From contig OX419759.1 of the NCBI GenBank assembly GCA_948567375.1, positions 50,992,593-51,056,592 of the forward strand: 64,000 nucleotides of DNA, read 5' to 3'. Shown here piece after piece: positions 9,713 through 61,079 of this stretch. The translations under genes were made by a program, and so were the position numbers. Numbering within the stretch: the stretch's first letter is position 1; each line of letters begins with the position of its first letter. The notes below the pieces were generated by a model, which was given only the letters and a program-made list of their open reading frames with translations, was not told the DNA's origin and did not search any database. Source of the DNA: Lunularia cruciata. Its lineage: Eukaryota; Streptophyta; Marchantiopsida; Lunulariales; Lunulariaceae.

Positions 9713-9717
9713 GGTAC
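9713..9717. repeat. Target-site duplication GGTAC (left)
   Basis: GGTAC lies immediately outside the LTR at 9718 and matches 15331-15335 exactly. Five base pairs is the usual duplication for Ty3/gypsy integrase. Confidence 0.95.
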
Positions 9718-10142
9718 TGTAAAAGACCGAAACCGAGGAGAGAAATATGAGAATGGAAACTCACATTGGGACACTTGAATGAGGGAAAACTCCGAATGCC
9801 TAGCATGAGCTTTGGCTTTGGTATTTATAGGTAGCATACAAGGCCCTTGAGAAGCTTCTCAAGAAGTTTTCTCAAGCCGCTTTCTTAGAGTGCAAGCCAA
9901 GTTAACTAGAAAGCTTCTCAAGAAGCTTCCTTCTAGAAGTTACCTACTTGGCGTGCAAGCTAAGCTAGTTGGAAGCTTCTAGAAGCTTCCTTCTAGAGGC
10001 TACTTACTTAAGGTGCAAGCTAAGCTAACCGGGAAGCTTCCAAGAAGCTTCCTAGATACTTCCGGAATATTCTAGGCTAATTTGTCTTATGTGCTACTTC
10101 GTGAGCCTGACTGACTTCGTCACTAAACTCCATATTGTTACA
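9718..10142 (-). repeat. 3' LTR of the chromovirus (element 1)
   Basis: A 425-bp LTR that reads TGTAACAATATGG at its start and GGTCTTTTACA at its end on the minus strand, so it has intact TG...CA termini. It carries GAAGCTTC-type heat-shock-element modules across 9851-10072 and a TATAAATA box at 9822-9829. R-U5 appears short (about 75-100 bp). It pairs with 14905-15330. Confidence 0.96.
9851..10072 (-). promoter_or_regulatory. Heat-shock-element cluster in the 3' LTR U3
   Basis: Heat-shock factors bind inverted nGAAn units; three contiguous units make a strong site. This U3 has GAAGCTTC at 9851-9858, 9922-9929, 10033-10040 and 10044-10051. It has a four-unit perfect site, GAAGCTTCTAGAAGCTTC, at 9972-9989 and a three-unit site, TTCCGGAATATTC, at 10060-10072. 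All lie upstream of the TATA box at 9822-9829 in the transcribed (minus) direction. The binding role is inferred from the motif; the motifs themselves are directly visible. Confidence 0.75.
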
Positions 10143-10390
10143 TATTCCCCTGCCGCTAGTTGGTGACGTCCTCGTTGCCAGTGAAGCTTCAAATTCCTGG
10201 ATGGCCGTCTGTGTATTGTGGAGGTGAGAAAGAGGTTCCCAGGTGGCATCATGAAGGGGATACCCTTTCCAAAGGACCTTGTACTCCGTATGTTGGCGAC
10301 GGCTCGTTGACATTGGCAACGTGCAAGGATACGATCAACTTCGCACTCCTCATGGTCATTGATAGGGATAGGAAGAGGGGTTAGGAACAA
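10094..10390 (-). pseudogene. Chromodomain at the end of pol (element 1)
   Basis: The minus strand encodes TEYKVLWKGYPLHDATWEP followed by a short helix-like region (QEFEASLA). This is the chromodomain signature (hydrophobic-Y-V-K-W-x-G-aromatic-W-E-P) carried at the integrase C terminus of chromoviruses, where it is thought to direct integration to particular chromatin. It is in a different frame from the upstream integrase, and its first half ([16 protein letters not shown]) is in yet another frame, so at least two indels have broken it. Confidence 0.9.
10143..10151 (-). other. Polypurine tract (plus-strand primer site)
   Basis: AGGGGAATA on the minus strand directly abuts the 3' LTR, the expected site for priming second-strand synthesis. 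The same position in the copy at 60614 reads GGGAGAATA. Confidence 0.85.
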
Positions 10391-10594
10391 AGGGTTTCAA
10401 CTTGGAAACATGAAAGACAGGATGGATATGCATGTGACAAGGCAAGGCAAGACGATAAGCAACAGGAGAGACAATTTGGGTGATATCAAAGGGTCCTATC
10501 CAATTAGGGGCAAGTTTACGAACTTGGGTATCAAGTGGGAGAGGAGGTTACTAGAGGAGAGCATGACTTTATCACCGACTTCAAAGGTGAGATC

Positions 10595-13500
10595 TCAACG
10601 ATGGTGGTCCGCATATTTTTTTTGGCAATTCTGAGCAACAAGGAGGTGAGACTTGGCTTGTTGGAGAGATTGGGATATAGTGGTCAAGAATGTGGAAGTA
10701 TGAGGAACTTGAGATGGAGGGGGAGCAAGATGAGAATCTGGAACAAGCGGATCTTGGCCAAAATTGAGAAAGAAAGGAGAGAATCCGGTGCTTGCCTGTT
10801 TGGAATTATTGTAGGCAAATTTGGCAGCGGCAAGACATTCATCCCAATTGGTATGGTGGACATTGACAAAGGCACGCAACATATCCTCTAATGTACGATT
10901 TGCACGTTTGGTTTGTCCATCAGTTTGAGGATGATAGGCCGTGGACAAAGCAAGCTTGGTGCCGAGTATCTGAAAGAGTGCTTGCCAAAACTTCCCGATA
11001 AAGTGAGGATCACGGTCCGAGATGAGTACGCGTGGCATTCCATGATGCTTGAAGATATTGTCAAAGTAGATTTGTGCTAAGGTGGGAGCATCCACGGTAT
11101 CACAGGTTGGTGCCAAGTGGATTTGCTTACTAAGCTTATCCACAAACACCACGATGGCGGTGTGTCCTTGTTTTGTCTTTGGCAAGGATGTGAAGAGATC
11201 CAAGCTCACATGCTCCCAACGAGCTGATGGAACGGTAAGCGGTTGAAGGAGTCCACCCGGCTTCTAGTTGTTGGCCTTGTTACGTTGGCAACTCTCACAC
11301 GATTGGACAAATTCTCAAACATCCTGTGTCATGTTAGGCCACCATCATTGACGTTGGAGGGTACCTAAGGTCTTGTCCACACCCATGTGAACAGCGATGG
11401 GTAAATCATGGGCTTCTTGAAGGTGCACAAGTCGAAGATCACCTTTGGCTGGAACATAGATCTGGTCCGTATGGAATAGAAGGCCTTCCTTGAAGGAGAA
11501 GGTGTTGTACTCCTTGTCACCTGTTGTTAGCCGACCATGTACCATTTGGAAGAAGGAATCTTGCCATAGAGCTAACCGAAACTCGTTATGAATCTTGGGA
11601 TCAATTGACACCGTCGTAATTGTTGCCGCAATGAGAGGAAGAGACTTCAAATCAGGTCGTCGTGATAGAACATCAGGGATGACATGGAACCAACCTGGTT
11701 TGTACTCAAGTTTGATGTCAAACAATTGGAGTTGCTCTTCCCATCGATGATGTCGACTCTTCATGTGCTCTAGGTGTAAGGTCTGCAACAATGACTTGTG
11801 ATCAATTCGCATGATCACTTGTTTCTCCAAGAGATAATGCCTCCGTACCTTGGTGGCATACACCATTGCAAGTTGTTCCCAATCTCGAGCAGAGTAATTT
11901 CTTTCAGCTATATTTAGTTGGCAAGACACAAAGGCAATAGGATGTAGTCCATCTGGAAATTCTTGTTGCAACACAATTCCAATTGCAAAGTTAGAAGCAT
12001 CAAAATCAACCACACAAGGTAGTTGAGGATCATATGGTTGAAGAATGGGTCTTGAAGACACCATATGCTTTAACTTCTGGAATGCTTCTTCATGCTTGGT
12101 GGTCCATTGGAAGCTCGAGTTCTTTCCCAAGAGGTCAGTCAATGGTGCAGCTACCTGAGCATAATAGTGGATGAACCGTCGGTAAAAACTGGCCAATCTA
12201 TTGAATGCTCGTACTTTGGTAGCATCCTTTGGGGTAGGCCAATCAGTAATGGCCTTGATCTTCTCTTCTTCTATCTTGATCTCCTCTGATGAGATCTTAT
12301 GACCCAAGAAGGTAACCTTCTTCTACCAAAAAGCACACTTTGACTTCTTGCAGTAAAATCTCCACTGTCGTAGTCGTCTTAGGACTTCTCACACATGATT
12401 CTTGTGTTCTGCCTCTGTCCTACTATAGATTAAGATATCATCTAAGAACACTACCACGGAATGATCCAATAGTCCTTCCAACACCCGATGCATCTGATCC
12501 ATGAAGACTGCTGGAGCATTAGTGAGTCCGAAAGGTAGAATTCTCCACTCAAAATGTCCATACCTTGTGTGAAAGGTAATCTTTTGCACGTCCTCTCCTT
12601 CAATAGGAATTTGCCAATAGCCGCTACAAAGATCTAGCTTGGAAAAGTAACATACTCCACTTAATTGACCAAGCAGGTCATCGATCCAAGGCAAGGAATA
12701 TGCATTCTTCACGGTTTGCTTATTGAGCCCACGGTAATCAATACAGAAACGAAGTCCTCCATCCTTCTTTAGAATAAATAGTACCGGTGCTCCACACGGA
12801 GAGGTACTATGTCGTATGAAATCCTTCTCCAACAACTCTGTAAGTGTTGTTTGCAACTCCTCCAACTCCTTTGGTGGGAGCCGATAGATTGGTCTACTCA
12901 CTAGAGTACTCCTTGGCAATAACTCGATCTTGAAGGGCATACCTTGATCAGAGGGTAATCCCTTTGGCAGATCATCCGGAAACACATATGCAAACTCCTA
13001 AACTATCCAATCAACCGTTGCTTGATGCGGCACCTGGCCCTCCTCAGATTGTTCTTGTGCAATCGGCTTGATCTACACCACGAATACAGACTTATCTTCC
13101 TCCAAAGCTTGCTCTATGGCTGCTTCATTAACAAACTTCCCTTCTAGGGACTCATCTCTCTTCCAAGCTTGCTCCATGGTTGCCTTCTTGGCAAACTTCC
13201 CATCTTGGGACTCATCTCCCTTCCAGATTTGCTCTATGGCTACCTTCTCAACAAACTTCCCATTTTGGGATTGACTATTCTTAGGTGTCTTACTCAGAGG
13301 TGTCAGACAACCTAATCGGAAATTCCTACCTTGGTGTTGTACTTGAATTTGAAGTCGGGTCCAATCGAATTGAACCTTATGACGTTCAAGCCAAGGTAGA
13401 CCCAGAATGATATCATAGTGTAGAGGTGCCACTACAAACCTCATACACTCCAAATACTCCTTCCCAATCTTGAAGGTAACAGGATGTAAGGTGCGGAATG

Positions 13501-13708
13501 CAGAACTTTTTCTACCATCCGCCATCATCAAACTACTTCCAATCACTGGCTTGATAGGAATATCCAATTCCTTTGCTACTTGCATAGATATGCAATTCTC
13601 TGAACTTCTAGAATCAACCAAAATCCTACAACCCCGATTAGATATCATACCTTGCAAGTGAAGCAAACTTGCATAGGTCGAGCCTTCAATCCCATTGGAA
13701 CTAATCAA
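10595..13708 (-). pseudogene. pol: protease, reverse transcriptase, RNase H, integrase (element 1)
   Basis: One reading frame spans the region but is interrupted by several stop codons (for example near 13073, 12387 and 11345). In order on the minus strand: an aspartic protease with LVDSRSS where D-S/T-G is expected (Gly to Arg, so probably inactive) and LGLPWL downstream; reverse transcriptase with [18 protein letters not shown] and VFLDDIL (12389-12985); RNase H with the hallmark region VDFDASNFAIG and a C-terminal DVLSRRPD (11345-12307); an integrase zinc finger in which a C-x2-C survives next to a stop; and an integrase core with SLDLFTSLP, DRDPHF and YHPQTDGQT (10595-11209). Motif order and sequences are those of plant Ty3/gypsy chromoviruses. 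The copy is nonfunctional through stops, although all domains remain recognisable. Confidence 0.94.
13075..13275 (-). repeat. Three 60-bp in-frame repeats between protease and RT
   Basis: Three imperfect 20-residue repeats follow the protease. Each has a GKF(V/A)-(E/K/N)(K/E)A-x-(I/M)EQ core and a D/E-rich end (KGDES, KRDES, EEDKS). The repeats are in frame and lie in the linker between protease and reverse transcriptase, a part of pol that usually tolerates length change. Most likely a local tandem expansion. Confidence 0.85.
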
Positions 13709-13734
13709 GCTCCCAATAGGCGGCTCGAAATCTC

Positions 13735-14633
13735 CTACTGGGATTCTTCATTTCCCTGATCATTCTGTTCCACAAACTCCATCTGGGCAACTTGTCGAGG
13801 TTGCACATTCCTAAGTGAGCATTCAGCAATGTGATGTCCAACTTGGAAACAATAAAAGCAACCTCCATTTTGTCGTGATCTTTCTCTATCTATTGTGCCA
13901 AGTGGTCTTGGTTGGATAGCATCACTCTCCATTGGTACCGGTTCTTCCACTCGTGGTACTGGTAGGTTTTGTGTAGGTCGAGGTCGAGACCAAGTTGTCG
14001 CAACTAACGAATCAAAACGCTCAGCCAATTGCATGGCTTCTTCTACGTTCTGTGGCTCTTGCATGGTCACCTCCAATCTGGTTTATGACTTCAATCCTTG
14101 CACAAATCGATCCAGAACTTCACCTTCTTGGATATCTGGAATTTGCATGATGATATTCTAAAATTGTGTGATGTAGCTTCTCATTGAGCCAATCTGCCTC
14201 AACTCCGCCAATTTATCTCGTGCAGCTCGGGTGGCATTTATAGTTTGAAATCGACCAAGTATTGCATCCTTGAATTCTGCCCATGTCAAAATCGGTGTAA
14301 CAATTTGTGGTTCAGCTCTTTCTACTCGGAATCGCCACCAAAGTTTTGCCACGCCATCCAACTAGCTAGAAGCCAAGAGAATTTGTTTCCACTCATCTTG
14401 AAGATTGGTGGCTTCAAAGTAACGTTCACAGTCAAACACAAAATTCTCCACTGTGCTTGGAAGATTCTTGCCTTCAAACACCTTGGGTTCAGAAATCAAA
14501 TGCGATCTTCTCCATCTCGAACTGGCGCTCTGTCTATCTATTCTTGTCGTTGCTGGTCTCGTTCATCCAACAATCGAGTAAGATGCTCAATTTGTTGTTG
14601 CATTGCAAGGATAACATCCGGTATTGCCGCCAT
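13735..14633 (-). pseudogene. gag polyprotein (element 1)
   Basis: The minus strand starts at an ATG at 14631-14633 with AAIPDVILAMQQQIEHLTRL, a coiled-coil-like N terminus typical of plant gypsy gag. The capsid-like core follows at 14158-14361 (GVAKLWWRF, WAEFKDAILGRF), then the nucleocapsid zinc knuckle CFYCFQVGHHIAEC (CCHC, C-x2-C-x4-H-x4-C) within 13735-14076. At least one frameshift separates the start from the core, and two or more stops break the core from the knuckle. The product would package element RNA into virus-like particles if intact; this copy cannot make it. Confidence 0.9.
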
Positions 14634-14891
14634 CACTACCACTCTATTCCACTACCCTCAATTTATCTAGTTGATTAACACATAGATACAACACGTCCAC
14701 TATTCTCCATAAGTTACAACTGGAAGTATCAAGGGTTCTTCTGACACGGTGATCATATGTAGAAAATCTTGCCCAAAGCATGAGGTGATGAATTGTGTGA
14801 AACGATGCTTTGGTAATATCTGGACATGAAAGTCCCAATGGTTTGGCAGAAGTGGATTTGGTGGTCCATAAATTCCATCCATCCCATTCCT

Positions 14892-14903
14892 GCTCTGATA
14901 CCA
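14892..14903 (-). other. Primer-binding site for initiator tRNA-Met
   Basis: TGGTATCAGAGC on the minus strand lies one base inside the 5' LTR and matches the complement of the plant initiator tRNA-Met 3' end, the usual primer for plant Ty3/gypsy reverse transcription. The position fixes the inner edge of the 5' LTR and the element's orientation. Confidence 0.96.
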
Positions 14904-15008
14904 ATGTAAAAGACCGAATCCGAGGAGAGAAATAGGAGAATGGAAACTCACATTGGGACACTCGAATGAGGGAAAACTCCAAATGCCTAGCATGAGCTTT
15001 GGCTTTGG

Positions 15009-15016
15009 TATTTATA
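15009..15016 (-). promoter_or_regulatory. TATA box of the 5' LTR
   Basis: TATAAATA on the minus strand, a perfect plant TATA box, about 20-30 bp downstream of the nearest GAAGCTTC module and about 100 bp before the LTR end. Transcription would be expected to begin near 14975-14985. Confidence 0.8.
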
Positions 15017-15040
15017 AGTAGCATACAAGGCCCTTGAGAA

Positions 15041-15240
15041 GCTTCTCAAGAAGCTTCCTCAAGCCGCTTTCTTAGAGTGCAAGCCAAGTTAACTAGAAAG
15101 CTTCTCAAGAAGCTTCCTTCTAGAAGCCGCCTACTTGGCGTGCAAGCTAAGCTAGTTGGAAGCTTCTAGAAGCTTCATTCTAGAAGCTACTTACTTAAGG
15201 TGCAAGCTAAGCTAACCGGGAAGCTTCCCAAGAAGCTTCC
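15041..15240 (-). promoter_or_regulatory. Heat-shock-element cluster in the 5' LTR U3
   Basis: The U3 half repeats GAAGCTTC-type inverted GAA/TTC units, with a perfect four-unit site, GAAGCTTCTAGAAGCTTC, at 15159-15176 followed by TTCTAGAAGC. In plants such arrays are bound by heat-shock transcription factors, and the copia element ONSEN of Arabidopsis is the known precedent for an LTR driven this way. The function here is inferred. Confidence 0.75.
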
Positions 15241-15330
15241 TAGATACTTCGGAAATATTCTAGGCTAATTTGTCTTATGTGTTACTTCGTGAGCCTTACT
15301 GACTTCGTCGCTAAACTCCATATTGTTATA

Positions 15331-15335
15331 GGTAC
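15331..15335. repeat. Target-site duplication GGTAC (right)
   Basis: An exact copy of 9713-9717 directly outside the 5' LTR. It restores the reading frame of the interrupted LINE-like remnant when the chromovirus is mentally removed. Confidence 0.95.
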
Positions 15336-31500: not shown

Positions 31501-34017
31501 TAAAATAAAATATTTTCTAATGAGATTAAAACTAAAATTTATGATATATAGATTACTTTAGCCTCAACTAACCTAGCTAAAGTTATAGTTATGAAATGGA
31601 TAAATAATTAGTAGTAAGCACATAGATACTTCCTGAGCATCCTTTAAATTGATTTGAATCTATCCTCACTTCAAGTAGTAACCATCTTCGGGATTGTACA
31701 ATCAGTAAGAAACCAAAGTCCAAGCTCAACACCGACAAGTAGGATCCATTGAGACTCCATGTGATGCACAAAAATAAAATAGTTCATTATGTATGTAGTG
31801 TAAATATTGAAACCCATTAAAGATTTCTTGTAACTTACATAGCTAAAATTTTAGTAAAATAATTTTTGTTATATTAATAAATATATAATACATATTGAGA
31901 CTCACTTTACTAAATGAATTTTTTACATTTAACTTTAACATAAAAAAAATAATTTTATTATTGTAAACTGTAGCTATAGATATAATTCTCCTTATTTATG
32001 AAATTTAAGATAGGTTAATAATTTAATATTTTTGAATTTTTTTGGATTTTAAATGTACATTTAGGATGATGTTTTCAACAAATCAAAAGGTGAAAATAAG
32101 AAGGTAATATGAATATAGTATTATAATATTTTGTGCTTGGGTTTCCTTTATTGAATTTGAAATATGCAGATAATACATTATTATAAAAAACAAATACATA
32201 TATACCTTAATATATTGCTTGTTACATATCCATTAATTATGTTTAAAAAATTATCAAGATATTCAAACATTAAAAAAATAAAAAATAAATCACAATAGAA
32301 GATTTGATACTCCTACATTAATATAATAACGTAAATTAATTTTCCTTGAATTGTGCAACTTCTTAATGTGAATCATTCATTTATCTTCATATACTCTCAA
32401 AACTACTCTATCTAACTAACTATGGTTCTTCTTGCTCTTTGCTTTTTGTTCTTGTCTTTCATTTGTAGCTTCTTTCAAGTCCTTTCTCTCCATGTATTAT
32501 ATGGTAGGAAATTGGATTCCTATCTAATGGTGAACATTACCGTCTTAACCTTAATATTCAATACCTCAACACTAATAACCATAAGACAACAATAGATATA
32601 GGCATAGATATAGTATGTATCATCTGGATCATAGTTCTCATAAGAAAACCCGTTGGTTGACAATTACTCATAATGCAATGTCTTGCTTCTCCTTGAAAGA
32701 AAAAGTCAATCAACTCAAGATCAAGCAGAAGATCATATGTTGATCCATAGAAAAAGTAATTGGAAGGACCCTAATTATGTTGCATAAGTTCAAGAATGCC
32801 AAAAACCTTGTTTAATATGCATATTGTATTATATATCTTGTCATACAATTCTTTTGAAGACAACAAAGTGGTAGAACTATCAGAATAAAAGTTCAAGACA
32901 CAAGGCTAATAATAATGATAAGATAATACAAAAGGATTTTTAAACACATGAATTAGGAATCCATTACCGCGATACTTTAGCTTCAAGGAGTTGCTCATAA
33001 TCAACAGGAATAAAATCAACAACTTAATTAGGAATAAAATCAACATTGAAGAACTTTTCTTGATTTTTGCATAATTTAAAGTCTTTTTGCATAGTCCAAA
33101 ATTCTAAAAAGCAATTTTTGACGTTGTATCTATAATTATGGTTAGTGCTTTTTAATGAAGATCCCTACAACAATACCACTAAAATTAATTTACTTATAAG
33201 TTTCAATTTTGAGTCAACTTGATACATATAAAAAAAGAATTTATAGTTAATTTTCATTATAAAATAATTACCTATATTGACTAAGATTTTAAAATAAGAA
33301 AAAATCAAACATTGATCATAAAACTATTCTTAAAAATTGAGAAATTCATCTATATATTGCAAAATTTATATCAATAGAGCTTACCAAGTTATGCAAATCA
33401 TAATTTATACATTACTCCTCTTATCTTTTAGTCATAAATGGATTCTAAAAATAATCCCTATCAACTTCTAGTCTTGATAGTAAGACAGATTTTTACTCTC
33501 TCTATGAGTATTTCCTTTAAAACTTTCCAAAACTTACTTTTCTAAACCTTTGTGTTTATCTCTTGTTTCTATAACCTATTTCGAGGGAAAAGTACTTGTG
33601 CTTGGATTTGGCACTAAATCCCTTATAAGGAAAACCTATCAAGTCTATGTTTATATAATGATCTTCACATGAAATTTTTTTTGAAGTTATTAAAAAATTC
33701 TTTTACTTTTCATATTTATCCAAAATTAGGAATATTCATACAATGATGAAAATCTCATTAATAGCACCCATTAAGATATCCATCTTAGTGAGGCATGTTT
33801 ATGCCTCATCTACTCTCATATACAATTTAGATTTCACATCTTTACTAAATATCAATCTATATAATATTCCTAGTTGACTACTTCTTTGAGTATCTTTTAT
33901 TGTTGGAGTACCTTATTCTTCAAGTTTTCTTTTATACACATGTGACTGGAGAAACTTTTTCATATAGATGTGGTCATAAATTGGGTGTAATTGTTCATAA
34001 ATCTTACTTACTCGTTT
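28500..34017. other. AT-rich block without a recognisable gene
   Basis: A sharp switch to AT-rich DNA with long A/T runs and few open frames over 60 codons. A low-complexity stretch near 29746-29880 repeats TTGTACCT and CTCATACTT variants. A TATAAATA-like site near 30750 within a leader-like stretch hints at an old LTR, but no coding motif supports it. Probably heterochromatic, strongly decayed transposon sequence, like 42619-44800. Confidence 0.5.
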
Positions 34018-34370
34018 TAGAAAAGACCAAGGAGAGAAACAAGAGAATGGAAAATCACTTTGGAACTATGGAAAAATCCAAATGCCTAGCTTGAGTTTGG
34101 GTTTTGGTATTGATAGGAAATTTAGGTACAAGGTTCTCAAGAAGCTTCTAGTGAAGATTCCTTTTAGAAGCTGATTTTCTTAGAATGCAAGCTAATCTAG
34201 TTGCTTAGTTGGTGTATAAGTTAAGTTTGCCATCAACTTGGCATATAAGTTACTCAATCCTTGGCAGGTTCTTAAGAGCTTCTCACCAAGAAGCTTCTAG
34301 AATATTCTTATATATATATAAAAGATCTATCTCCTTTTAGCTATATTTAGCTCTTGCTAACTCCATATTC
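34018..34370 (-). repeat. 3' LTR relic of element 2
   Basis: Shares with element 1 the blocks AAAAGACC..AGGAGAGAAA, AATGCCTAGC and GAAGCTTC, and the inner end AACTCCATATT followed by a CCACCGCTAGTTCG-like polypurine region. It carries a perfect four-unit heat-shock site, GAAGCTTCTAGAATATTC, at 34290-34307. Its TATA box is mutated to TATCAATA. Confidence 0.85.
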
Positions 34371-35105
34371 CTCCACCGCTAGTTCGTGACTTCAAACTTG
34401 CATATGGTTGCTTGTGCATTTTGGAGATGAGAAATAGGCTCTCATGTGGTATTGTGATGCATATACCTTTTCCAAAGGATTTTATATTCAATTTATCATT
34501 AGCATCCAAGTTGGATGTAATGACTTGCAAGTATATAATCAACTTTGTATTCTTCATGATCATTAATAGAGGTTGGAAGAGGAGTAGAAGGTTTTGTATA
34601 AGTAATAAAGAAGATGTGTTAGGAACAAAGGGTTTTAACTCTGAGACATGGTGGATCTTTATGTGACTAAGGAGTGCAAGTTTGTAGGCAACAAGAGAAA
34701 TGATCTAAAGGTAATCAAAAGGATCTGCCCAATTGGGAGCAAGTTTGCAAACTTGGGAGTCAAGAGGGAGAAAAAAATTACTTGAGGAAAGTATAACCTT
34801 ATCACCTTTTTTGAAAAGTGATCACAATGGTGGCTATCAATATATAGTTTTTGCCAATTTTGAGCAACAAGAAGATGAGACTTGGTTTGATGTAAGGATG
34901 CATATAGTTGAGACAAGAAGGTAGAAGTATGAGTGACATGATATGGTAGTGGAGCAAGAATAAGCAAGTCTTGCACATAATTAAGGAAGAAGGGAGAGAA
35001 GAATATACTTTCATGCTTGGAATTATTGTAGGCAAACTTGACAATCAACAGATAAGTATCCCAATCAAAATTGTGAACATTAAGAAAAGCACATAACATA
35101 TTTGT
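34371..35105 (-). pseudogene. Integrase and chromodomain remnant of element 2
   Basis: The minus strand retains VKFAYNNSKHESIFFSPFFL and KSHLLVAQNWQKLY (about 34830-35060), collinear with the integrase end of element 1. More decayed segments match the chromodomain region (34380-34560). Multiple frameshifts are visible. The homology stops abruptly near 35105. Confidence 0.85.
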
Positions 35106-42228: not shown

Positions 42229-42618
42229 TGTAAAAGACCAAGGAGAGAAATATGAAAATAGAAGATCACTTTGAAACTCTATAGATATGTGATATGTGAA
42301 ACTCCAAATGTCTAGCTTGAGCTAGGGCTTTGGTATTTGTTGGCAATTTAGATACAAGGTTTTCAAGAAGCTTCCAAGGAAAGTTTCTTCTACAAGCTTT
42401 TTTTCTTGAAGTGTAAGCTAAGCTAACCGTTTACGTGGTATGTAAGCTAAGTTGACCGTCAATTTGGATACAAGTTACACAATCCTTGGAAAGTTCCTAG
42501 AAGCTTCTCACCAAGAAGCTTTGGATGCTTCTAGAATATTCTTAGAAGTTTCTATATATGTATACTAGTTCTATCTCCTTTTAGCTATATTCAGCTCTTG
42601 CTAACTCTATATTATGAT
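42229..42618 (-). repeat. 5' LTR relic of element 2
   Basis: Begins TGTAAAAGACC at the inner edge and follows element 1's LTR with many substitutions. It retains a three-unit heat-shock site, TTCTAGAATATTC, at 42529-42541 but has lost the TATA box (TATTTGTT). The outer boundary is uncertain by a few bases. Confidence 0.85.
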
Positions 42619-44815
42619 ATAAATAAAGACTTTTATATCAATGATGAAAAAATAAAACATCTTTTACTAATAGTCAGATATATATACTTATTCACTGCTA
42701 AATTTCTCCAACATCAATATCTACATTAGTTATACTCTCAAGCAAAAAATTTCAATCTTTACTTAGTAAATATATATAATTTTTATAAAGTCTCATTGTC
42801 TTCACTTATTACAAAGTCTCTAAGAATATATGCATTTTCTCTACAAAATTCCTCTTCAAAATTACAACATAAGTAATCTGGTGTCTAAATAAAGTCTTAA
42901 TTTATTGAGATTATTTGAAATAAATAAACTCAAAGTCAAAGACTTTAATATGGATTTTTGTCTTCACATACCTTGTTTTGTAGTTTTTAAGCATATATTT
43001 CAAGATTTAATATTTTATGATTAAAACTTTTAAACAAGGTATGTGAAATATGTTCTAATTGAAAATATAAAATGTTTAAATCTTCAAAATTAAAGTAAAT
43101 ATATTTAGCTTAGCCTTATTTATTATCACAAGTGACTTATATAGAATTTTACTTCTATTATAAACCAAGCCAAATTGACCTTACAAAGACTAAGGCAAAG
43201 GTTGAGATAATCCAATTTACAATTATTTGATTTTATATTGAAATATATTTTAGTATAAATTCACTAAATAATTACTTAAAATAATAATTATTCATTGATA
43301 TTTTATATGAGCATCTTAATTTAAATAGATGAATTTAATTTGATTATTCCTGTATTAGTTGATTACAAATATCTTTAAATAACCCAAAATATTACAAGTT
43401 ACTTTAGCACTAACTATTTTCTCCTACTTGCATCAATTAATCTTCCATAAATTGAATTTTTACTTGAATTTGGTTCATCCATAATCTCTTGTTTAATCAT
43501 GAATGCATATGATACAATAACATACAATACTCTTTGCATCAATTACACTTTATACAAGATTAAGTTTTGCTTAAATTTGGTTCATCTATCATCTTCTTCT
43601 TAATCATGATTAATTATGATAGTACTCTAGGTATAATAAGGAACATATTACATAATGCTATACCAATTCTCCCACAACTCTCCTTTGTCATCTCTACTTT
43701 TTTCTCTTTTTTTTTGAATATATTATATAAGAGCTACATCCTCAAATTGAGTACTTATCCTTTCTCCTCTAATTATTGCTCATGAAAGTCCTTTTAAAGT
43801 AACTAATAAAGGCTTCTATTTGATCTATATTCCTACCCAGAAAATTTATAAGTTTCTTTATCTTAGCCTCTCGTTACCTTCTTCTCTCCATTTTAATTCC
43901 TATTGCTCTCACCTAATAGATTAGAAATATGAATCATTCCATTTGAGGATAGTCAACTATAGGTTATTAATAGGTTAAGGTTACGCCAAGATTTCTACCA
44001 CATTGTCAAACCCTAGAGTGTATATCAGTCAAACACTCACAGATACCTTATCCATTAATTAAAAGACAATCTCAATCTTTAATCTTGAGAACTCTCAATT
44101 GAAGTTAGTTTCTCCATGATGGTACCAAGATTCTACACCTAGGTTTCCAAAAATACTACTACATCATGGCCCTTTAAAAGACCTTCCAATCCATAAACCT
44201 TATTCCTTGGTTCCTAGGTTCTAGATTTCTTTACTCCTAATCTTTGTGACGAAGGTACAACATACAATCCTAAGTCAATCAAACCTCCCATTTCCACTTA
44301 ATCTCTTGTTCTTAAAGCTCAATCAATATGAATTTGCCTTATATATCTTCTCTATATATAATAAAGAACTTGGAATAACTTTTTCCTCCTGGTGGAGAAA
44401 TATTTTTAGTCCTCTTAACATTTTGTTCAAGTTCTATTCTAAATTCTCCTTTCTTCAAATCATCCACTATTATCACCTCAAGCCTTTAGAGAATATTTTA
44501 TAACCTCAACTTCCACTCTTTATGGCTTTCCGTGCTCCAAAGATGAATCTAAACACTTGGACATGCTTTTGGCTATTCTCAATTCCCCACGCATGAAGTA
44601 CTCCCAAGTAAGATAGTTGTAAATTAAAGCATTATGAGTAACTCTTCATCTCTTGTTTACATATTTGTGTAATTCCTAAACCTAAAAGTTATTAATAACT
44701 ATAGTAACTAAAAAAAAGGCAAAAAGTTTTCTACAGTCAAAAGTCTAAGTAAACTTGGGATTTGGTGGGATTACCAAAAGTTAAAAGGCTATTAACACCA
44801 AACGGATGTATAAGC
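42619..44815. other. AT-rich block without a recognisable gene
   Basis: Very AT-rich and poor in open frames, similar in composition to 28500-34017 on the other side of element 2. I see no motif of any gene or transposon protein. Confidence 0.5.
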
Positions 44816-54014: not shown

Positions 54015-55745
54015 CTATGCTGCTAATAACATCTCACCACCAATAACACCACCAATAACACGAACTTCCGATTCGGTAGTTTTATCTAGATTACTCTCCT
54101 CCGTTTTCTCCTCCTCTTTGGGCAGATCCACCTTCGCTACCAGGATCTCTACCTCCGGCGTAATAGCTTCGACCTCCTGCTCCTTTTCTGGTTCCACTGC
54201 AGGGGGTTTGACTTCTATAGACCCCTCCTTAACAGGCACTGCTTCCTCTCCTCTCTCCCTCTTCTCTTTAGCCTCTTGTTGAAGCTTCAAATACTCCTGC
54301 TTCTTCGACTTTACCTCCTCCACTGATTTGGGTGCATCTCCGACAATAGTTGGAGGGGAAAGTTTCACTTTCTGAAAGGAAGTCAGCACATCCAGAGAGA
54401 GCAAAAGTCTTTCTTTTTCTTTGCTTTTAGTGGCAGGCGCTACTTTCTTTTTTCCCTTGCCTTTGGAGGTGCCCAGGAACCACCCATCTAATTCCTCGTC
54501 GTTCCTGTTCTTTTTGCTGATTACAATGTTCCCAACTCCCTTGGGTGCTACAATCTCGGTTTTCACAGGGGCTACAGCGACTCCTTCCTCCGCCACCGGG
54601 GCATGCTTCTGCAAGTAGGAGATGAGCTGGTCGCAGATGATGATCTCATCCGTGTAAGGTTCCACAAAATTTTCAAGCTCTCTCTCTTTCCGAATTTTAT
54701 CCCGCTCCTTGCGCTCCGCTTCTCTCTTCTCATAGTCTTTGCGCCTCTGCAATGTTTGCTGCTCCTTCCATTGTCGTTCTCTCTCCCAGTATTCATCTTC
54801 TTTGGCGCGAAACTCCGCTTTCAACTCCTTCACTTCATCTCTAAGAGCCTTGATCTTCTCAAAAGCCCCATTCCTCTCTTCGATCAAAGATGGAATGTCG
54901 ACGGCCTGTGATGCATCCCTCTCTCTAATTTCAGCCAATAGCCTTCTCTGTTCATCTTGTTGTGACTTCAAGCCGTTCAAAGTTTGATCCTTCTCCCTGA
55001 TCTTCTCCATGATATCTGCCCTGGAAGCTTCGTCCGCGGTAATCTGTTCCATTCTGTCGTTATAATCCCTAACGAAGTCCCTCGATTTCGTCAACTCCTT
55101 CACTTGTAGCATGAATTTCTTCTCCTCCTGAAGAGAGAGCGAGGTATGCGTCATCTTGTACTCGAGCTTCTTGATTTCCTCGTCGATCTGCTCAACACGC
55201 ACGTAAGGCAACTTCTCACGTAAAGATCTTGCATCTGCGCGCATCCTCTCTCTCATCTTGTCCGCCAGATCCAACTCCTCCCTGAGAGCCCTCTTCTCGT
55301 CCATCACAGATCGGAAAGAAGAAGTTAAGTCGCTCAACCGACTCCGGGCTTCCAAAACCTCCTGTGAAACAACATGCTTGTTCTGCTGCTTGCTGTCAAT
55401 CACACTCTTAATCTCGAAGATTCTAGCCTGCAAGCCATCCACTTCCCCAAACACCTTCGCTACTTGCTCGTCCAAATTTGCCTTCTGCGGCCTCTCCAGC
55501 CTCTTCACCCTCTGTATTCTCTGCGCCACTTCCTTCACCTCCACCTCTGGAACCACTGACTCCAGAGGCTGAATAGCGGTCTCTATCAACCCTACCATGT
55601 CTTCTGCCTGCGCTTCACAAGCCCGATTGACACCACCGCGCGCCTCAATAAGCAAAAGCCCTCCACCGCATTCATTCCCAAACAAACACTGTTCACAACT
55701 AAATGAGCTGCTCTCTACAAGACTACCACAACCACCGGACCTCAT
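54015..55745 (-). CDS. Bfr1-like coiled-coil protein
   Basis: A single uninterrupted frame of 576 residues. Residues about 70-360 are almost continuous charged coiled coil (Lys, Glu, Arg, Gln). Within it, LPYVRVEQIDEEIKKLEYKM (174-198, shown in part) and the following LQEEKKFMLQVKELTKSR resemble the conserved core of Bfr1-type proteins, as does ENFVEPYTDEIIICDQLISYL (358-378, shown in part). A Lys-rich stretch (GKGKKKVAPATKSK) and LSLDVLTSFQKVKLSPP follow, then an acidic Glu/Pro/Val-rich tail. Yeast Bfr1 is a polysome- and ER-associated RNA-binding protein tied to secretion and nuclear segregation; the plant role is not settled here. The first 49 residues are Cys/Gly/Ser-rich and look unlike the rest, so translation may begin at M50 (55598) or the leader may be spliced. 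A plant proton-pump-interactor-type coiled-coil protein is the main alternative. Confidence 0.75.
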   Translation of the reverse strand: MRSGGCGSLVESSSFSCEQCLFGNECGGGLLLIEARGGVNRACEAQAEDMVGLIETAIQPLESVVPEVEVKEVAQRIQRVKRLERPQKANLDEQVAKVFGEVDGLQARIFEIKSVIDSKQQNKHVVSQEVLEARSRLSDLTSSFRSVMDEKRALREELDLADKMRERMRADARSLREKLPYVRVEQIDEEIKKLEYKMTHTSLSLQEEKKFMLQVKELTKSRDFVRDYNDRMEQITADEASRADIMEKIREKDQTLNGLKSQQDEQRRLLAEIRERDASQAVDIPSLIEERNGAFEKIKALRDEVKELKAEFRAKEDEYWERERQWKEQQTLQRRKDYEKREAERKERDKIRKERELENFVEPYTDEIIICDQLISYLQKHAPVAEEGVAVAPVKTEIVAPKGVGNIVISKKNRNDEELDGWFLGTSKGKGKKKVAPATKSKEKERLLLSLDVLTSFQKVKLSPPTIVGDAPKSVEEVKSKKQEYLKLQQEAKEKRERGEEAVPVKEGSIEVKPPAVEPEKEQEVEAITPEVEILVAKVDLPKEEEKTEESNLDKTTESEVRVIGGVIGGEMLLAA

Positions 55746-56200
55746 TTCACAAATGACAGAACGGCATTAAACCAAACAACCCGAATCCCTCCAACTAACA
55801 CCATTCATTCATTCATTCATGATCAATAAACAGCACGCGACAGGACCGCGCCGCAAAATTCTCTCCAGAGAAAGAAATCGAGCCCCGACGAAAATCAGTA
55901 GGTTTTGAAAAGTTGTGACACGATCGTACCTTTGGCAGGACAACAGCACCACCGAACCAACAGCTGCAGCTGCCGCTCGCTGTAGTGTTGCTTCTTTCTC
56001 TCTTATTCCGACGAAGAGAAAATCTCTCTCTCTTTCTCGTTCTCGAGTCTCGAGGAAGAAGCTTGAGCAAGAGAGAGAGCGCTCCGCGCAGTTCCTTGTT
56101 CACCAAACAAACGGATGAGTTCGACTCCGTTGGTCGGCAGGTCCATCCATCCATCCATTTAAAATAATGATCCACTTAACAGTACCCTGTCGTCGCAGTC
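55746..56200 (-). promoter_or_regulatory. Probable leader and promoter of the Bfr1-like gene
   Basis: The minus strand upstream of the start is GA-rich around 56010-56080 (runs of AGAGA), a common feature of plant 5' leaders. A donor-like AAG/GTACG lies near 55930. Short tandem CATTCATTCATT (55803-55818) and CATCCATC (56143-56158) runs are present. The TATA box and start site were not resolved. Confidence 0.45.
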
Positions 56201-60613: not shown

Positions 60614-61079
60614 TGAAAAACCAAGACCGAAGAGAAATATGATAATGGAAAATCACATTGGGATACTTGTGTGTGAGAAACTCTGAATGTCTAGCATGAG
60701 TTTTGGCTTTGATATTTATGGGGAGTATACAAGGCTCTTGAGAAGCTTCTCAAGAAAATTCTTTTAGCCATTTTCTTAGAATACAAGCCAAGTTAACATG
60801 GAAGTTTCTCAAGAAGTTTCTTTCTAGAAGTTGTATATTTGGCAAGCTAAACTAATTGGAAGCTTCTAGAAGCTATCTACTTGAGGTGCAAGCTAAGCTA
60901 ACCGTGAAGCTTCCCAAGGAGCTTCCTCCTAAAAATTACCACTTGGCATGCATGTTACCCAATACTTGGGAGTGTACCAAGTAGCTTTTTATGTACTTCT
61001 AGAATATTCTAGCTAATTTGGCATATTTTCTACTTTGTTAGCCTTTACTGACTTTGTCGCTAAACTCCATATTGTTACA
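60614..61079 (-). repeat. 3' LTR of element 3
   Basis: 466 bp; ends in TGTAACAATATGG on the minus strand like element 1. It keeps heat-shock sites at 60859-60871 (GAAGCTTCTAGAA) and 60997-61009 (TTCTAGAATATTC) and a weakened TATA region (CATAAATATC near 60711). The outer boundary is placed by alignment to element 1. Confidence 0.88.

Follow-up and report, generated by a model that had tools for sequence, protein, structure and literature searches.

In Lunularia cruciata, a family of Ty3/gypsy chromoviruses carries perfect heat-shock elements (HSEs) in its long terminal repeats (LTRs), upstream of a TATA box, and we put the probability at roughly 70% that heat-shock factors (HSFs) bind this U3 region and switch on transcription of the chromovirus in heat, as in ONSEN. 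HSF trimers bind such HSE arrays in heat-shock promoters; because the putative docking sites lie in the chromovirus's own promoter, heat would probably switch the family on. What the sequence shows is the HSEs themselves, more of them than expected by chance, located 5' of the TATA box, kept across lineages although the spacers change, and distributed over the genome along with the family.

The window, by which we mean the whole 64-kb stretch of DNA that was analysed, contains an insertion of this family, element 1, with the following architecture:

9718..15330, minus strand: element 1, Ty3/gypsy chromovirus insertion of ~5.6 kb (LTR pair, target-site duplication, ORF pieces, Pfam domains)
9713..9717: left target-site duplication, 5-bp GGTAC
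15331..15335: right target-site duplication, 5-bp GGTAC
14905..15330, minus strand: 5' LTR, 426 bp, with U3 at the high-coordinate end
9718..10142, minus strand: 3' LTR, 425 bp, K2P 0.041 versus the 5' LTR
14892..14903, minus strand: primer-binding site TGGTATCAGAGC, 1 bp off the 5' LTR end
13073..13747, minus strand: aspartyl protease piece (PF13975, 2.7e-07)
12389..12997, minus strand: reverse transcriptase piece (PF00078, 2.2e-24)
11345..12322, minus strand: RNase H piece (PF17919, 1.2e-29)
10595..11263, minus strand: integrase core piece (PF00665, 6.2e-08)
10077..10334, minus strand: chromodomain piece (PF00385, 2.1e-11)

Since element 1 lies on the minus strand, "upstream" corresponds to higher coordinates. 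The Pfam domains succeed each other on that strand in the order protease, reverse transcriptase, RNase H, integrase and chromodomain, which, together with the LTRs, the primer-binding site and the 5-bp duplication, identifies element 1 as Ty3/gypsy (Metaviridae). In the Ty1/copia order the integrase precedes the reverse transcriptase, whereas here it follows reverse transcriptase and RNase H; consequently, the chromovirus is not a member of the ONSEN family. The PF00385 chromodomain 3' of the integrase, the hallmark of chromoviruses, is found in element 1 and also in the B element described below. We take the primer-binding site TGGTATCAGAGC to match the initiator tRNA-Met, and the short length of the element and of its LTRs suggests that it may belong to the Reina clade. 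The reading frame differs from one coding piece to the next, and the downstream part of the protease piece contains a direct repeat with a 60-bp offset (13089-13270, 80% alike).

Read on the element's own strand, the LTR sites of element 1 form a promoter-like U3, whose components are:

15009..15016, minus strand: TATA box TATAAATA of the 5' LTR (sequence reading)
9822..9829, minus strand: TATA box TATAAATA of the 3' LTR (sequence reading)
15159..15176, minus strand: perfect four-unit HSE GAAGCTTCTAGAAGCTTC of the 5' LTR, 142 bp upstream of the TATA box
9972..9989, minus strand: perfect four-unit HSE GAAGCTTCTAGAAGCTTC of the 3' LTR
10060..10072, minus strand: distal perfect three-unit HSE of the 3' LTR, with a core conserved across lineages
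15038..15244, minus strand: U3 tandem array, period 60 bp, 3.4 copies, with paired GAAGCTTC-type dyads

Along the element's strand the distal three-unit HSE starts at about LTR position 71 and the four-unit HSE at about position 155 (positions are ~5 higher in one alignment of A copies because its query begins outside the LTR), and the dyad repeats extend to 21 bp from the TATA box TATAAATA. At least three contiguous alternating nGAAn units thus lie in the LTR upstream of a TATA box, as in an ONSEN-type promoter. The distal HSE of element 1 is perfect in the 3' LTR and imperfect in the 5' LTR. Three further LTRs of the family lie in the window:

60616..61079, minus strand: 3' LTR of a B-lineage element that continues past the window end, with HSEs at 60859-60871 and 60997-61009
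42229..42629, minus strand: C-lineage LTR remnant with perfect three-unit HSEs at 42362-42374 and 42529-42541
34010..34375, minus strand: C/D-lineage LTR remnant (window D copy) with a perfect four-unit HSE at 34290-34307

Repeat comparison indicates that the remnants near 42.2 and 34.0 kb are older. An earlier note, made from the sequence of this DNA, had placed HSEs at 9972-9989, 15159-15176, 34290-34307, 42529-42541, 60859-60871 and 60997-61009, all of which were verified; its list lacked two perfect three-unit HSEs, at 10060-10072 and 42362-42374. The description of the HSEs as lying just upstream of the TATA box is accurate for the nearest GAAGCTTC, 21 bp away, but not for the four-unit HSE, which is 142 bp away in element 1 and in other A copies. 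Moreover, the HSEs are indeed kept in what had been regarded as three diverged copies, but these represent two lineages: The C and D LTR queries match many of the same genomic places, which unites them and leaves B as the other lineage. The exact TATAAATA is absent from the window B copy (60616-61079) and present in 30 of 39 other B copies; no TATA-like match was found in the window C and D copies. The window B 3' LTR with its two perfect HSEs faces a long minus-strand ORF (54015-55766) about 4.8 kb away, which yielded no Pfam match at 0.01 and is a candidate for heat-driven read-through from this LTR. A separate ORF, for a V-ATPase c subunit, scored 315 bits against its best PDB chain, which is from a plant, and at most 186 against all others listed, in keeping with a plant host.

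The tandem array allows a different account of these sites, in which the GAAGCTTC/TTCTAGAA palindromes are by-products of repeat expansion in U3 that happen to resemble an HSE and have been copied along with the transposon, with no role for HSFs. A 60-bp tandem repeat does exist in U3, and the dyads are in perfect register in one 60-bp unit alone: In the other units they are separated by a gap of 4 bp instead of 2, which puts them out of HSE register and leaves a three-unit HSE with one mismatch. We nevertheless regard this account as unlikely, as the distal three-unit HSE lies outside the array (15038-15244) as a separate site kept in A, B and C, and the counts and divergences given in the following bear on it as well.

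All 11 perfect three-unit HSEs (GAAnnTTCnnGAA) of the 64-kb window lie inside the five LTRs of this one Ty3/gypsy chromovirus family, which occupy 2,132 of 64,000 bp. The comparison with shuffled LTRs proposed in the earlier note, performed directly on the five window LTRs, bore out the excess: Dinucleotide shuffles contained on average ~0.01 perfect three-unit HSE per LTR and reached the observed count in 0, 0, 0, 1 and 0 of 1,000 cases (left and right LTR of element 1, then B, C and D LTR); the corresponding numbers for trinucleotide shuffles were 0, 4, 0, 1 and 0. Counts matched so rarely, or never, argue against accidental by-products. A further 20 loci of 10 kb, each picked for the presence of an A LTR, held 83 perfect three-unit HSEs: 82 fell into 14.5 kb of family LTR and 1 into the remaining 185 kb of DNA, for which ~2.0 are expected from base composition. 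A chance origin of the LTR HSEs is rejected by the shuffles and by this background density. The sites also have a preferred position: An exact TATA box is present in 28 of 29 A LTRs, and in these 28 the perfect HSEs (74 of 74) and the one-mismatch HSEs (216 of 216) are all located upstream of it, although 26% of the bases are downstream. Non-family direct repeats from the 20 loci and the window, candidate LTRs amounting to 7.3 kb at two loci and thus a weak test of whether any LTR has HSEs, contained no perfect and two one-mismatch HSEs.

Sampling of genomic copies, likewise proposed earlier, confirmed that the HSEs are kept. The perfect four-unit HSE occurs in 28 of 31 A LTRs of a first sample, of which 29 met the coverage rule; counted by lineage, it is present in 26/29 A, 2/39 B and 2/18 C/D LTRs. 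At least one perfect three-unit HSE was found in 29/29 A, 30/39 B and 11/18 C/D LTRs, and none in 9/39 B and 7/18 C/D LTRs; these gaps, like the rarity of the four-unit HSE outside the A lineage, weigh against the HSF reading. (Of the B lineage, 39 LTRs were fetched, 20 of them were scored in a first count, and 40 including the window copy entered the A x B divergence; of 20 C LTRs fetched, 16 met the coverage rule, and the 18 C/D LTRs include two window copies.) The reversed A, B and C/D sequences, used as a control, held no perfect HSE, and one-mismatch HSEs numbered 224, 200 and 63 versus 1, 9 and 11 after reversal. Based on these lineage counts, the distal three-unit HSE is probably ancestral, and the four-unit HSE is probably in the main a gain of the A lineage.

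We then compared lineages by net divergence, that is, the between-group minus the within-group difference. Between 33 A and 40 B copies it was 0.003 at 19 HSE core columns, 0.106 in spacers and 0.059 elsewhere, and 9 of 407 circular placements of the all-site core, the real one included, were as low. A column was treated as core when it lay in a perfect HSE in 40% or more of the copies of either lineage; HSEs lost from both do not enter this count. For the distal HSE, the alignment comprised 29 rows of A, 39 of B and 17 of C, plus the window D row, which was assigned to none of these groups. Net divergence of core, spacer and rest was 0.006, 0.304 and 0.193 for A x C (as low in 2 of 283 placements), 0.004, 0.084 and 0.156 for B x C (in 4 of 283) and 0.002, 0.236 and 0.057 for A x B (in 23 of 283, which is weak alone). 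These distal-HSE placement counts probably include the real placement, and in repeat-rich LTR alignments the motif itself can act as an anchor. That GAA/TTC cores are kept between lineages while spacers diverge supports HSF binding; it also speaks against the by-product account, as change between lineages at the distal HSE is mostly in the spacers. Within lineages, the comparison of distal-HSE core C/G with other C/G positions gave no sign of selection on each LTR copy, a result that a family of mostly silent copies would be expected to give: Variation was higher at the core in A (0.117 vs 0.069), about equal in B (0.244 vs 0.224) and lower at the core in C (0.210 vs 0.339).

The sites have spread with the family throughout the genome. 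The 566-Mb assembly contains 7,083 perfect four-unit HSEs versus 117 matches to the reversed pattern, and 37,428 three-unit matches on both strands versus 14,300 in the control, where every four-unit HSE enters the three-unit count twice. Among the first 50 four-unit matches listed, a non-random set from the first 4.4 Mb of one contig, 48 lie in family LTRs: 22 have the exact 9-base LTR context, and 26 of the 28 others fall inside family-LTR alignments. When up to 3 mismatches are allowed, a 27-base pattern taken from the LTR context has 13,880 matches in the assembly versus 19 in the control. The 7,083 sites are copies of few ancestral sites and as such non-independent as evidence for function; this dominance of the genome-wide counts by copying of one sequence is compatible with the by-product account, too. 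It is conceivable, though doubtful, that nearly every strong (four-unit) HSE of the host stems from this single heat-driven plant chromovirus family with its thousands of LTRs.

According to the mechanism we favour, HSF-mediated activation in heat, the U3 promoter of a high-copy plant Ty3/gypsy chromovirus would be built from HSEs. Host HSFs, trimeric once activated by heat, would occupy the distal three-unit HSE, the weaker dyad repeats and, in the A lineage, the four-unit HSE. Transcription by RNA polymerase II would then start from the TATA box, which lies ~20 to 230 bp downstream of these sites, so that genomic RNA of the chromovirus would be made in heat. Copying in heat-stressed cells would then favour lineages that retained or strengthened their HSEs. 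HSF binding, heat induction and heat-driven expansion of the family are what we infer from the DNA sequence.

HSFs might also bind the sites in response mainly to a signal other than heat that acts through HSFs, such as proteotoxic or oxidative stress, drought or a developmental cue. Plant HSFs respond to other stresses besides heat. One study reports HSF and/or S1Fa-like motifs in Gypsy elements near Arabidopsis genes upregulated by proteotoxic stress (PMC8725346), which fits such a cue, whereas the four-unit class is described for Brassicaceae copia elements as the strongest for heat (PMC5059998, excerpt). The sites seen here are compatible with any of these cues; we regard a main inducer other than heat as quite improbable.

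Alternatively, the HSEs may once have been functional in a family that is now fully silenced by DNA methylation and yields no transcripts in heat. The median CpG observed/expected ratio of the LTRs, 0.37 vs 0.51 inside element 1 and 0.58 in the window, fits long methylation, and the coding pieces of element 1 in their different frames are in line with silencing. Against this, three presumed same-strand A LTR pairs have K2P values of 0.007, 0.012 and 0.036, so some insertions are fairly recent, and complete silencing seems very improbable to us. Plant DNA accumulates about 1.3e-8 substitutions per site per year, a rate uncalibrated for L. cruciata; as K2P was taken with this rate, the A pairs and element 1 (K2P 0.007-0.041) date to about 0.3 to 1.6 million years. 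A further "LTR pair", L022, was dropped from dating since it joins opposite strands.

The comparison with known systems draws on those parts of the cited sources that were available. For ONSEN/ATCOPIA78, recombinant HSFA2 binds the LTR in EMSA and activation is severely reduced in the hsfa2 mutant (PMC3907296). Its LTR resembles that of the chromovirus: It has a cluster of four nGAAn units, termed 4P, next to a gap-type site that is weaker, and 4P is described as a duplicated proto-site (PMC5059998), comparable to the four-unit gain in the A lineage. In contrast, ONSEN is a Ty1/copia element with eight full-length copies in A. thaliana (PMC5059998), whereas the chromovirus family is Ty3/gypsy, has a chromodomain and comprises thousands of LTRs; two ONSEN LTRs are without CG and CHG sites (PMC3907296), whereas the chromovirus LTRs keep some CpG; and heat induction is demonstrated for ONSEN and predicted for the chromovirus. 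Multi-unit HSEs are likewise present in the LTR retrotransposons TERESTRA/Alesia.FAM.7 and COPIA37 of Brassicaceae, where several of them arose in just one lineage (PMC5059998; PMC10881000), but these elements are Ty1/copia, and the available text describes no 60-bp HSE-bearing tandem repeat.

Calling the family a Ty3/gypsy counterpart of ONSEN, as the earlier note did, is fair as an analogy, but HSE-bearing and heat-induced Ty3/gypsy elements have precedents. TCN3 of Cryptococcus is a Ty3/gypsy element whose LTR contains two putative HSEs and whose mobility is raised at 37 °C, and TCN12 has a putative HSE; they differ in their fungal host and few HSEs, with a role of HSF suggested (PMC12810828, excerpts). 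In moso bamboo, the Ty3/gypsy elements PHRE1 (4,980 bp) and PHRE2 (5,515 bp) are reported to be heat-activated, but TCP, DOF and GATA factors are named at their LTRs, and the term HSE is absent from the main text as available (PMC8656106). Heat-induced Ty3/gypsy elements of pine and Cryptomeria appear as rows in a review table (PMC9780303). The chromovirus family is therefore, on these partial sources, neither the first Ty3/gypsy with HSEs in its LTR (TCN3) nor the first heat-induced Ty3/gypsy of plants (PHRE1/2, pine, Cryptomeria). Among the matches listed, the nearest precedent is a de novo motif search that detected HSF and/or S1Fa-like motifs in Gypsy elements close to stress genes of Arabidopsis (PMC8725346); Gypsy elements are also over-represented among heat-responsive elements in Arabidopsis (PMC5059998), but the accessible portions describe no HSE array in a chromovirus U3. 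HSE arrays in a plant Ty3/gypsy LTR were not found among the matches listed from the open-licence literature, nor were HSEs in Reina chromoviruses, and the portions searched described no plant chromovirus that has a tandem HSE array and at the same time accounts for most of the strong HSEs in its genome. One transposon class supplying most genomic HSEs is known from the Helitrons of Caenorhabditis (61.4%; PMC6927752, excerpt); these are animal DNA transposons, whereas the chromovirus family holds 48 of the first 50 four-unit matches listed, and in its own promoter.

If the family is heat-driven and the source of nearly all strong HSEs, a reading that we called doubtful above, each heat episode would mobilise it, and the HSF-binding landscape of the host would be largely transposon-made, diluting HSF or rewiring the heat responses of nearby genes. 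In the excerpts compared, plant retrotransposons with HSF control proven by binding and mutants are Ty1/copia (ONSEN); a chromovirus with an ONSEN-like switch in thousands of LTRs would mean that the heat-shock pathway was captured by another superfamily. It would then be testable whether heat drove plant genome growth and whether the thousands of transposon sites titrate HSF or rewire its action.

Several further sites deserve mention. The four-unit HSEs sampled outside the family include L088 (G000:C1:359490-360107), a five-unit HSE with three overlapping three-unit matches that is possibly a host heat-shock promoter. In a search for a host heat-shock gene by intron-free ORF reading, the 5 kb surrounding L088 contained no ORF of at least 90 aa and the other such site, L089, had two short ORFs nearby, so that neither serves as a positive control. 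Within the family, one LTR (L104, G000:C1:2481204-2481821) has two three-unit HSEs 1 bp apart (2481490 and 2481504), which suggests further array growth in some copies. The assembly contains at least two matches to the HSF DNA-binding domain, a small number that weighs against the HSF reading but is a lower bound since the search ignores introns; the match with stops in the surrounding frame, at G000:C14:50658-51116 on another contig, is full-length and runs in one frame without an intron.
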